From assembly GCA_947589675.1 (NCBI GenBank), contig CANQCI010000012.1, forward strand, positions 1-43,415: a stretch of 43,415 nucleotides of DNA, written 5' to 3'. The notes beneath the pieces were generated by a model, which worked only from the letters and a program-made list of their open reading frames with translations, made no database searches and was not told the DNA's origin. Shown here piece by piece: positions 24,261 to 28,907 of this stretch (position 1 is its first letter; the number at the start of each line of letters is the position of its first letter). The stretch is from an uncultured Bacilli bacterium. Its GTDB lineage: Bacteria; Bacillota_I; Bacilli_A; RF39; UBA660. The translations under genes and the position numbers were made by a program.

Positions 24261-26480
24261 TTAAGATATATTATGAACTAATAGTTCATTTTCGCTAACT
24301 AAATAATTATGATTATCCTCAATGGATAAATTATATACTTTTACTGGCTCCGTTAATTTTTTTAGGTTTATTTTTATAATTTTTTGACTGCTTATATTAC
24401 TTTCATTAATCAAATAATCACCCTCTTTTAAATTATAAGCTCTAACCCAACCTTTATCAACGACATAAAAGCGATGCTTAGGAGTAGCTTTTATTACTTC
24501 ATTACCCACAGTTATTTCATATAATTCATCTGTTTCATTAACTACTGTTTTTAGTACTTTTTTAAGTTCTTTTTTACCTGTTAATTCTGATACTGACCAT
24601 ACTTTTTCACCAACTTTAATATCCTCGATATTTTTAAATCCAGATTCAGCTAAAATTTTAGTGCCCGCAACAAAACAACAAACTTCAACATCTTTAGTAA
24701 TAAAAGCTATATTACCAGCATTATCTCTAGTTTCTATCTTTAAAGTATACTGACTAAATAATTGAAGACAGTCAAATATTACATCACCAGTATTATTGCT
24801 GGAATATAAAATAAAATTAGTACTAGAACCTGTTTCTTTATAATATATATCATAAGAACCAATATAATTACTACCACCAGTATCATTTATAATAACATTA
24901 CTAACTTTAATAGTATAATCACCAGAAGCAGATTGCATATAATAAGCATTATCTATATCATATGATGTAATTGTTGGAGCTATATTATCTAATTTAATAT
25001 TATAACTAGAACTTGATGTCGAAGTTATATCTTGATATTTAATCCGAAATTGATAATTAACATTTTGACTTTGCGTTATATTAAAAGTAGCATTACAATC
25101 CACCCAAGTAGAACCATTGGTCGTATATTGATAGGTTATTCCTAGATTTTCTAAATCACTACTTAAATATACTTTTATATTTTTATTAGTCCATGTTCCT
25201 GGATTATAATTACTCTCAATATTATTTTCAATAGTTTTTAAAGTAACACTTGGAGGATTAATTACTTTGGTAGAGATATTTTTTGAATATGGAGCCGAGG
25301 TAAAATGATTATCATCTTCAACATAAACTTTTATATGATATTCGGTTGAATGAGTTAAATTATTAAAGGTATAACTAGGACTAGTACTTTCTTCATAGCT
25401 TTCCCCATTATTAATACTATAATAATATTTAATTATTTCTTTACCATTTCCTAAAGTTGAATCAACATTGATTGTTATACTAGTAAAGGTACTTGTATAA
25501 TCTTCTTTTATGGTAACTGTTGGTCTTGCATATTCATCAGTTTTTACTAAAGCTTCCACGGTATTACTTGCCATATATTCTTTATCAACAACATATCCAT
25601 AGATTTTATAATTAGTATTTTCTTCTAAACCAGTAAAAGTATATGTAGCACTATCCGTTTTAATATAATCTTTTTCATTTAATAATGCTATATTACTAGT
25701 ATTCATAATTCCAGTTGCTTCACTATCATTTAACTTTTCAATGCCAAAATAATAGTCTTTTATTTCTTGAGTTCCTTTTTTATAATCTAGCGTAGCTGTG
25801 ATGGAATTATAAGTATTTTGCGTATTATTTATCACATTGGCTTCTGATAACTTGTAGGTATCTTCCTCAGCCGTTGTTATTAACAATTTTCCTGTAAAAG
25901 TTTTCCCTGCATTCTTTATTTGATCCTCATTTAAATTTATCAAGGTTACTTCTAATTCCCATTCTTGGGTTAAAGCTTCTGTGCTATTTTCAACTTTAAT
26001 CTCATAATTACTAGCTATTTTATAAGTATTAGTTCTAGTTGTTATATCATAATAATTATTTTCTAACGCTCTTAATTCTTTTATATCATTAACATAATTA
26101 TTGGTAGGATCTTTTACTCTTATAGTTAATTCAGGTGTATTCTCATTTACTGAATATGCAAAATCATTATTTTCAATTACTAAATAAACATTATAATGTT
26201 CGATTGCACTATTCGTCGCATTATTAGCTTTCAATGTGGCACTTACCTTAGCTTTAGATACTATATTTTCTTTTCCCTTGGCAAAGTTTTCTTGATTAGC
26301 ATTTATAACTACTTTCCCATCATTAGCAAATTGAAGAGAATCCGTGGTTCCAGCTCCGACTTCAATTTGAGCACTTCCACCTGTTCCCTTTTGGGCAGTG
26401 AAGTAGGCATAGGTCGCACCAATCATAACTAATATAAGAATTATTATCGTAAAAAAAACTATTTTCTTTTTATCTTGCAT
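24261..26480 (-). CDS. SipW-type secreted protein with FN3-like repeats and C-terminal HINT domain (copy A)
   Basis: 739 residues. The signal/anchor segment is the SipW-cognate type (VMIGATYAYFTAQ, residues 20-32). A TasA/camelysin-like beta domain follows (about 35-200), then fibronectin-III-like or Ig-like repeats (about 205-595). The last 139 residues are a HINT domain: Cys1 in CFVAGTKIL, block B ATPKHRFYV, and a terminal NYLVSENELLVHN followed only by Ile-Ser. HINT domains self-cleave by an N-to-S acyl shift; here no toxin or extein follows. GGAG at 7 nt supports the ATG. Copy B is the next gene upstream and is nearly identical through the middle. The LtaS-like gene follows after 2 nt. 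Confidence 0.85.
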   Translation of the reverse strand: MQDKKKIVFFTIIILILVMIGATYAYFTAQKGTGGSAQIEVGAGTTDSLQFANDGKVVINANQENFAKGKENIVSKAKVSATLKANNATNSAIEHYNVYLVIENNDFAYSVNENTPELTIRVKDPTNNYVNDIKELRALENNYYDITTRTNTYKIASNYEIKVENSTEALTQEWELEVTLINLNEDQIKNAGKTFTGKLLITTAEEDTYKLSEANVINNTQNTYNSITATLDYKKGTQEIKDYYFGIEKLNDSEATGIMNTSNIALLNEKDYIKTDSATYTFTGLEENTNYKIYGYVVDKEYMASNTVEALVKTDEYARPTVTIKEDYTSTFTSITINVDSTLGNGKEIIKYYYSINNGESYEESTSPSYTFNNLTHSTEYHIKVYVEDDNHFTSAPYSKNISTKVINPPSVTLKTIENNIESNYNPGTWTNKNIKVYLSSDLENLGITYQYTTNGSTWVDCNATFNITQSQNVNYQFRIKYQDITSTSSSSYNIKLDNIAPTITSYDIDNAYYMQSASGDYTIKVSNVIINDTGGSNYIGSYDIYYKETGSSTNFILYSSNNTGDVIFDCLQLFSQYTLKIETRDNAGNIAFITKDVEVCCFVAGTKILAESGFKNIEDIKVGEKVWSVSELTGKKELKKVLKTVVNETDELYEITVGNEVIKATPKHRFYVVDKGWVRAYNLKEGDYLINESNISSQKIIKINLKKLTEPVKVYNLSIEDNHNYLVSENELLVHNIS
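25045..26348. repeat. 1304-bp direct repeat, copy A
   Basis: Line-by-line comparison with 27391-28694 shows no difference, including synonymous positions. It covers most of the TasA-like domain through the FN3-like repeats. Sequence diverges sharply on both sides. Confidence 0.9.
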
Positions 26481-26621: not shown

Positions 26622-28835
26622 TTAAGACCAATTCAGGTTATGAACTAATAATTCATTTTCACTTACTAAATAATTATGATTATCTTTTATTCTTAAGTTA
26701 TATACTTTAATATTTTTTAAACCAGTTTGGTGATTTATTTTTTTTATTTTACTTTCCTTTTGATTACTACTTACCAAAACATCACCCTCTTTTAAATTAT
26801 AAGCTCTAATCCAACCTTTATCAATGACATAAAAACGATGTTTAGGAGTAGCTTTTATTACTTCACTACCCACAGTTATTTCATATAATTCATCCGTTTC
26901 ATTTACTACCGCTTCTTCAACCTCTTTTAGTTCTTTTTCTCCACTTATTTCTGAAATTGTCCAAACCATATCACCAGCTTTTATATCTTCAATATTTTTA
27001 CTACCTGTTTTGGTTAAAACTTTTGTCCCAGCAACAAAGCAAGAAGTTTCAACATCTTTTGTAACAAAGGCAATATTACCAGCATTATCTTTAACTTCTA
27101 CTTTTATAGTATACTTTTCAAACGTTTCTAATAGGCTATGGTAGGAGGTATCCGTATTTTTATCAGATAATAATGTATAATTATCAGCTGAGTTTACTTT
27201 TTTATAATAAACTGCATAATAGCCAGTATAATTACTTCCCCCTTGGTCAGTTACACTAATATTGGATATAACTATATCAGCAGAAGCACCATAAGACTCA
27301 ATATTATATGATGTAATTGTTGGAGCTATATTATCTAATTTAATATTATAAACTGAGGAAGATATAGAAGTCATGTTTTGATATTTAACTCGAAATTGAT
27401 AATTAACATTTTGACTTTGCGTTATATTAAAAGTAGCATTACAATCCACCCAAGTAGAACCATTGGTCGTATATTGATAGGTTATTCCTAGATTTTCTAA
27501 ATCACTACTTAAATATACTTTTATATTTTTATTAGTCCATGTTCCTGGATTATAATTACTCTCAATATTATTTTCAATAGTTTTTAAAGTAACACTTGGA
27601 GGATTAATTACTTTGGTAGAGATATTTTTTGAATATGGAGCCGAGGTAAAATGATTATCATCTTCAACATAAACTTTTATATGATATTCGGTTGAATGAG
27701 TTAAATTATTAAAGGTATAACTAGGACTAGTACTTTCTTCATAGCTTTCCCCATTATTAATACTATAATAATATTTAATTATTTCTTTACCATTTCCTAA
27801 AGTTGAATCAACATTGATTGTTATACTAGTAAAGGTACTTGTATAATCTTCTTTTATGGTAACTGTTGGTCTTGCATATTCATCAGTTTTTACTAAAGCT
27901 TCCACGGTATTACTTGCCATATATTCTTTATCAACAACATATCCATAGATTTTATAATTAGTATTTTCTTCTAAACCAGTAAAAGTATATGTAGCACTAT
28001 CCGTTTTAATATAATCTTTTTCATTTAATAATGCTATATTACTAGTATTCATAATTCCAGTTGCTTCACTATCATTTAACTTTTCAATGCCAAAATAATA
28101 GTCTTTTATTTCTTGAGTTCCTTTTTTATAATCTAGCGTAGCTGTGATGGAATTATAAGTATTTTGCGTATTATTTATCACATTGGCTTCTGATAACTTG
28201 TAGGTATCTTCCTCAGCCGTTGTTATTAACAATTTTCCTGTAAAAGTTTTCCCTGCATTCTTTATTTGATCCTCATTTAAATTTATCAAGGTTACTTCTA
28301 ATTCCCATTCTTGGGTTAAAGCTTCTGTGCTATTTTCAACTTTAATCTCATAATTACTAGCTATTTTATAAGTATTAGTTCTAGTTGTTATATCATAATA
28401 ATTATTTTCTAACGCTCTTAATTCTTTTATATCATTAACATAATTATTGGTAGGATCTTTTACTCTTATAGTTAATTCAGGTGTATTCTCATTTACTGAA
28501 TATGCAAAATCATTATTTTCAATTACTAAATAAACATTATAATGTTCGATTGCACTATTCGTCGCATTATTAGCTTTCAATGTGGCACTTACCTTAGCTT
28601 TAGATACTATATTTTCTTTTCCCTTGGCAAAGTTTTCTTGATTAGCATTTATAACTACTTTCCCATCATTAGCAAATTGAAGAGAATCCGTGGTACCAGC
28701 CCCAACTTCAATTTGAGCACTTCCACCTGTTCCCTTTTGGGCGGCAAAATAGGCATAGGTCGCACCGATTACCACTAAAAGAAGTGAAAGCAACGCTAAA
28801 CCAAGCATTCTTTTATTTTTTTTAGTTTTATCCAT
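26622..28835 (-). CDS. SipW-type secreted protein with FN3-like repeats and C-terminal HINT domain (copy B)
   Basis: About 737 residues with the same layout as copy A: SipW-cognate signal (VVIGATYAYFAAQ), TasA-like domain, FN3-like repeats, HINT domain (SCFVAGTKVL, ATPKHRFYV, ELLVHN) and a four-residue tail LNWS. It differs from copy A in the signal region, in the repeat just before the HINT domain, and inside HINT, but not in the 1304-bp middle block. The start is uncertain. ATG 28835 has GAGG 12 nt upstream and fits the promoter below; ATG 28847 has GAGG directly against it. The frame continues upstream through a poly-Phe stretch encoded by the homopolymer, which is promoter, not protein. 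Confidence 0.82.
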   Translation of the reverse strand: MDKTKKNKRMLGLALLSLLLVVIGATYAYFAAQKGTGGSAQIEVGAGTTDSLQFANDGKVVINANQENFAKGKENIVSKAKVSATLKANNATNSAIEHYNVYLVIENNDFAYSVNENTPELTIRVKDPTNNYVNDIKELRALENNYYDITTRTNTYKIASNYEIKVENSTEALTQEWELEVTLINLNEDQIKNAGKTFTGKLLITTAEEDTYKLSEANVINNTQNTYNSITATLDYKKGTQEIKDYYFGIEKLNDSEATGIMNTSNIALLNEKDYIKTDSATYTFTGLEENTNYKIYGYVVDKEYMASNTVEALVKTDEYARPTVTIKEDYTSTFTSITINVDSTLGNGKEIIKYYYSINNGESYEESTSPSYTFNNLTHSTEYHIKVYVEDDNHFTSAPYSKNISTKVINPPSVTLKTIENNIESNYNPGTWTNKNIKVYLSSDLENLGITYQYTTNGSTWVDCNATFNITQSQNVNYQFRVKYQNMTSISSSVYNIKLDNIAPTITSYNIESYGASADIVISNISVTDQGGSNYTGYYAVYYKKVNSADNYTLLSDKNTDTSYHSLLETFEKYTIKVEVKDNAGNIAFVTKDVETSCFVAGTKVLTKTGSKNIEDIKAGDMVWTISEISGEKELKEVEEAVVNETDELYEITVGSEVIKATPKHRFYVIDKGWIRAYNLKEGDVLVSSNQKESKIKKINHQTGLKNIKVYNLRIKDNHNYLVSENELLVHNLNWS
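27391..28694. repeat. 1304-bp direct repeat, copy B
   Basis: Counterpart of 25045-26348, offset by 2346 bp. Identity breaks at 28695 on the signal-peptide side and before 27391 on the HINT side. Confidence 0.9.
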
Positions 28836-28861: not shown

Positions 28862-28889
28862 ATACTATCAAAAAAAAAAAAAAAGTCAA
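28862..28889 (-). promoter_or_regulatory. Promoter of copy B with a 15-base homopolymer in its spacer
   Basis: On the minus strand TTGACT (28889-28884), a 16-nt spacer and TAGTAT (28867-28862). Fourteen of the 16 spacer bases are T, part of a run of 15 (plus-strand A, 28870-28884). Slippage in the run would change the spacer length and so promoter strength. Confidence 0.6.
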
Positions 28890-28907
28890 GCAAACATACG
28901 TTTGCTT
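28888..28907 (-). promoter_or_regulatory. Inverted repeat overlapping the -35 of copy B
   Basis: Perfect 8-bp arms AAGCAAAC/GTTTGCTT with a 4-nt centre. It touches the -35 box, so it could be an operator. With the following T-run it also looks like a terminator; sequence alone does not decide. Confidence 0.5.

Follow-up and report, generated by a model that had tools for sequence, protein, structure and literature searches.

The best-documented cases of slippage in the promoter spacers of multigene surface-protein families come from mycoplasma pathogens. In Mycoplasma hyorhinis, the vlp lipoprotein genes have a poly-A tract in their promoters, where insertions and deletions of single bases turn transcription on and off (Citti and Wise 1995, as cited in PMC10502178). 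A control of the same kind, acting through a dinucleotide repeat in the promoter spacer, is described for vmm of Mycoplasma mycoides (Persson et al. 2002, as cited in PMC10502178). In Bifidobacterium breve, sortase-dependent pili are switched by slippage of intragenic G-tracts (PMC9187656).

We analysed a window of 43,415 nucleotides, i.e., the whole stretch of DNA under study, from an uncultured bacterium of the Bacilli. In this window, a run of 15 T fills most of the promoter spacer upstream of a gene encoding a surface-type protein, which we call copy B. To judge from the sequence, this is very probably a slipped-strand phase-variable promoter of the Vlp type, belonging to a repertoire that extends over the genome. 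Like vlp, it has an A/T homopolymer in the promoters of a paralogous surface-protein family; switching was shown for vlp and is predicted here. Unlike the vlp products, the proteins are SipW-like or membrane-anchored, with C-termini that are PT-HINT, glycine-rich, DUF6273 or unclassified, and the host belongs to a Bacilli lineage outside the mycoplasmas that encodes MutS and has at least 14 such promoters, a subset of them with a LexA-like box. The likeness to vmm lies in the control of surface-protein transcription by spacer length, whereas vmm is a single gene and its repeat is dinucleotidic. The B. breve pili are also surface structures of a gut commensal switched by replication slippage, but their G-tract is inside the gene and not in a promoter spacer. 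We found no paper on poly-T promoter switches in this lineage, in a literature search of incomplete coverage.

Architecture of the copy B promoter

The minus strand upstream of copy B reads TTAAAGCAAACGTATGTTTGCTTGAC-T15-GATAGTATGGGAAAAATTGAGGATGTATGAAAAG-ATG. The original prediction had set TTGACT and TAGTAT around a 16-nt spacer with 14 bases from a run of 15 T, and direct reading of the minus strand gives exactly this arrangement: the -35 hexamer TTGACT (28889-28884), the T15 homopolymer proposed as slippage tract (28884-28870), a spacer made of 14 T and GA (28883-28868), and the -10 hexamer TAGTAT (28867-28862). A TG directly 5' of TAGTAT yields an extended -10 of the type TGnTAnnnT (TGATAGTAT). 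Both sides of the tract are kept among paralogs, CTTGA(C) on the 5' side in most of them and GATAGTATG on the 3' side in many. Further downstream, the ribosome-binding site GAGG (28851-28848, minus strand) is part of a block common to the paralogs (ATTGAGGGTG) and precedes the most likely start of copy B, the ATG at 28835-28833. Transcription is predicted to start around 28856-28854, with a leader of about 20 nt, which would leave the T tract untranscribed from the copy B promoter. The start given in the list of open reading frames, a TTG at 28889, falls within the -35 and is an unlikely one. A translational switch was considered, as the tract can be read in the frame of copy B from this TTG, and was rejected given the position of the TTG and the conserved GAGG and ATG downstream.

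The 8-bp inverted repeat that had been predicted to overlap the -35 is present at 28907-28888 of the minus strand (AAGCAAACGTATGTTTGCTT, i.e., AAGCAAAC-GTAT-GTTTGCTT) and covers the first two bases of the hexamer. Its combination with the tract could be read in a different way, as the hairpin and T residues of an intrinsic terminator, or of an attenuator, that belongs to the operon upstream, and not as a promoter. The repeat does fold as RNA (-9.0 kcal/mol, z -2.9), it is followed by GAC and T15, and a terminator scanner flags the site. Yet the upstream pilin-like gene is already ended by an intrinsic terminator of its own at 28976-28941 of the minus strand (a stem at 28976-28948 followed by T7; fold of -9.7 kcal/mol, z -2.0). 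The hairpin is also not kept at sister promoters (0 at C8 and -2.4 kcal/mol at C55) where TTGA(C), the T tract and GATAGTATG are kept, and 15 to 30 T are far above what a terminator needs. We thus regard a terminator or attenuator as very unlikely. Since the pilin-like gene has its own terminator, copy B begins a separate transcription unit.

Copy B and its family

Copy B (26622-28835, minus strand) encodes a protein with an N-terminal GATYAYFAAQ, a central fn3-like region and a C-terminal PT-HINT domain. Its tandem paralog, copy A (24261-26480, minus strand), has no poly-T tract upstream. The two copies have in common a block of 1304 bp that is exactly identical, which indicates that they were duplicated recently or underwent gene conversion. 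Each has a PT-HINT/intein-like domain at its end, and they differ in their N-terminal signal segments, in their C-terminal regions and in their promoters.

The family comprises 56 ORFs in the genome (tblastn), with a common SipW-like N-terminal region (GATYAYF) and C-termini that vary between PT-HINT, DUF6273, glycine-rich and none recognised. The model of the SipW-dependent signal class, TIGR04088, matches neither copy A nor copy B, and the family protein of C55 scores 17.3 bits against a cut-off of 19. The N-terminus of copy B (MDKTKKNKRMLGLALLSLLLVVIGATYAYFAAQ) has no cysteine, and it thus lacks the type of lipoprotein signal peptide, with a lipobox cysteine, of the M. hyorhinis Vlp lipoproteins.

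Long T tracts are not a chance feature of the genome

The bare match to -35 and -10 hexamers at copy B is unremarkable, as the region is full of such pairs (103 found vs 90 ± 9 in shuffles). We then counted the A/T runs over 1.4346 of the 1.4574 Mb (98%) of this 27%-GC genome. There are 360 runs of length 8, 23 of length 9, two of length 10 and one of length 11, none of length 12 to 14 in the 1.4346 Mb read, and 17 of length 15 to 20, among which is the T15 of copy B. Markov models of order 2, 5 and 8 predict 1.7, 0.7 and 0.3 runs of at least 15, respectively. The bimodal distribution, with 17 long runs where 0.3-1.7 are expected, implies that T15 is not due to chance. The locus thus resembles a Vlp-type contingency locus in three respects: a mononucleotide tract of slip-prone length lies between the -35 and the -10 (T15 in a 16-nt spacer), this tract is far above the genomic background, and the same tract is found at several members of a surface family (14 loci and two cut by contig ends).

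The positions of the long runs are strongly biased. Fourteen of the 17 lie directly 5' of members of the copy B family. In all of these the coding strand carries the T, and most fit the frame CTTGA(C)-T(n)-GATAGTATG or a form of it that has a different -10 (AGTAAAATG, AGTATAATC, GGTATATTT, GATAATATT). Another two (C41, C43) have the same flank on their 5' side and are truncated where their contigs end, and one (C30:18327) is 5' of an unrelated gene. The tract of C29 has no recognisable -35. Another seven family members are at the starts of contigs that begin exactly at this promoter, which fits the expectation that assemblies break at such tracts.

The lengths of the spacers fit promoter function. 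Where a -35 is recognisable, the pure tracts of this genome make spacers of 15-20 nt, and in the three paralogs with interrupted tracts (C13, TTTCCCGCTTTTTTTGA; C43, TTTTCTCCTTTTTTTAG; C23, TTTTAGTGTTTTTTTGG) the spacer is invariably of 17 nt. A paralog with T8, and thus a 9-nt spacer, is presumably off. The tracts measure T8 and T15-T20 in this genome and reach T30 in the genus, these being consensus assembly calls that may be off by one or two, at loci that may have been cross-joined at the tracts. For a mycoplasma in a metagenome, such counting from reads has been done before (PMC5476646).

These lengths bear on the idea that the T tract is a static element, a bent or rigid A-tract that tunes the promoter and is held at constant length by selection. 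The conserved position of the tract across paralogs and species would agree with it, but length is precisely the most variable trait, and near-identical promoters of paralogs differ by two T (T18 at C52:3189, T20 at C54:3044). Besides, the absence of runs of 12-14 elsewhere in the genome indicates that long runs are otherwise avoided, and the persistence of interrupted versions at a 17-nt spacer indicates that a pure tract is not needed for the promoter. A static role therefore seems highly improbable. An assembly artefact, in which the length or presence of the homopolymer is invented at collapsed repeats, would account for the many contigs ending at tracts, the flank common to C29 and C30 and the implausible T61 at a contig end in one relative, but we give it hardly any credence, because assemblies made separately from further samples, rabbit and goat among them, have the same module at different genes, and the copy B locus is internal to its 43-kb contig, with a palindrome flank that is unique in the genome.

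Some loci may bear marks of rearrangement. The T17 tracts at C29:657 and C30:18327 have a common upstream flank of 76 bp and different genes downstream, possibly by misassembly or by recombination at the tract. At C48:1780-2010, 5' of a tyrosine recombinase gene, the front of a promoter with LexA box and CTTGAC-T5 breaks off and gives way to different sequence; this could be a trace of recombination at these promoters. Searching for a viral or mobile source of the promoter gave no match among 2.9 million viral contigs.

Poly-T promoters are spread across the genus

We found the pattern TTGNN-T13-N{0,15}-RTANWAT in 19 of 30 genomes of the genus, and the more specific T15-N{0,6}-GATAGTATG in 9 of 30, with no match for the reversed controls of either. 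The 57 spacers counted in the genus peak at 17-18 nt. The usual -10 differs by species (TATAAT in G010, TAAAAT in G020, TAGTAT in G000 and G019), which suggests that whole repertoires vary together. Of 19 genes read behind the tracts of relatives, 18 encode an N-terminal membrane or signal segment, a crude criterion that is satisfied by 562 of the 1293 genes of this genome. The exception is the gene of ribosomal protein L13 in G029 (L230), behind TTGAC-T16-CATATAAT, where a slippage promoter would hardly be expected. In relatives within the genus, we also observed a second, apparently unrelated family of membrane-anchored proteins (with a motif like TNMLTMMLETEAG) behind poly-T promoters (L129, L188, L206, L209, L211, L214-L216, L226 and L227).

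In a search of 84,980 species genomes, nearly all occurrences of T12-GATAGTATGS are in metagenome assemblies of uncultured Bacilli, several from rabbit and goat gut. The sole match outside Bacilli, an Elusimicrobium with T13, was treated as chance. Among 288 genomes of the order, the module is restricted to this genus. The original prediction of a slippage switch in the promoter spacer thus gains support from the presence of the module at many paralogs with 15-20 T, from the non-repetitive versions of 17 nt and from the spread in the genus.

A probable LexA operator beside the -35

In Bacilli, the LexA (SOS) box is CGAAC-N4-GTTCG. The genome encodes LexA (C21:6853-7044, 74.8 bits), and the core of the inverted repeat upstream of copy B (AAACGTATGTTT, AAAC-GTAT-GTTT, at 28903-28892 of the minus strand) is the exact reverse complement of AAACATACGTTT in the promoter of lexA itself (AAACATACGTTTGAC). 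Most of the lexA promoters that we read in the genus have AAAC-N4-GTTT-GAC, and an AAAC-N4-GTTT box also accompanies the Y-family polymerase gene of this genome (C41:2809). The copy B promoter thus has beside it a palindrome that matches the LexA box of the lineage, AAAC-GTAT-GTTT against AAAC-N4-GTTT. The repeat at 28907-28888 had been proposed as an operator, and this match makes it probably a LexA operator.

The box is not confined to copy B. Palindromes of the form RAAC-N4-GTTY, with variable N4 and at the same distance from the -35, are found at the family promoters of C8, C13, C20 and C55, at the contig end of C49 and at the truncated promoter of C48, the one of C20 being canonical (CGAACATATGTTCG). 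Most poly-T promoters lack a LexA-like box, and the boxed copies share ancestry. The family member of C13 (L069), which combines a LexA-like box with an interrupted spacer of 17 nt, is directly downstream of recA. The palindrome abutting the -35 is in line with the LexA/SOS regulon of Bacilli. As a candidate member of that regulon, a gene that encodes a surface protein and has a slippage tract would be out of the ordinary.

Most of the other poly-T promoters have, in place of a LexA-like box, TGTCAA/TGTAAA repeats 5' of the -35 (family promoters of C4, C7, C8, C34, C38, C41, C52, C54), and some of these have TGTCAATTTACA or GTGTAAATTTACAC near the start. These elements are perhaps sites of another regulator.

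A model for the switch and its meaning

Replication slips frequently at mononucleotide tracts this long, and the spacers preferred by sigma-70-type promoters are of 17 ± 1 nt. From these properties and the precedent of vlp, we infer slippage switching of copy B. RNA polymerase would use TTGACT and (TG)ATAGTAT around the spacer made by T15, and slipped-strand mispairing in replication would add or remove T, so that the spacer ranges over about 14-20 nt. The promoter would be strong with a spacer of about 17 nt (T16 at copy B) and weak or off at lengths more distant from it; the spacer of 16 nt in the assembly is presumably one T below the optimum, and the expression of copy B would change when T15 becomes T14, T16 or T17. 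Variation in length from cell to cell would then set expression and produce a mixed population with different surface proteins. Slippage rates may be lower than in mycoplasmas, since MutS is present in the genome.

In the subset of promoters where the LexA-type operator abuts the -35, copy B included, expression may need both a permissive tract and the release of LexA upon DNA damage. One can imagine a switch with two inputs, where the poly-T spacer would pick the family members that a cell can express and LexA would hold some of these promoters shut until DNA is damaged, in which case stress would open the gate and could also speed up changes in the tracts through error-prone repair synthesis. 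We put this forward tentatively, at somewhat less than even chances.

An uncultured genus of animal-gut Bacilli appears to use the same principle as the mycoplasmas on a large scale, one genome having at least 14 of these putative switches. If functional, the LexA box would tie phase variation of the surface to DNA damage, a connection for which we found no precedent in the literature searched. As far as the sequence can tell, the copy B promoter is part of a genus-wide repertoire of slippage-controlled promoters of surface proteins, some of them probably under the control of LexA. Such a repertoire would imply that the surface of these commensals is continuously diversified, perhaps under pressure from the immune system or from phages.
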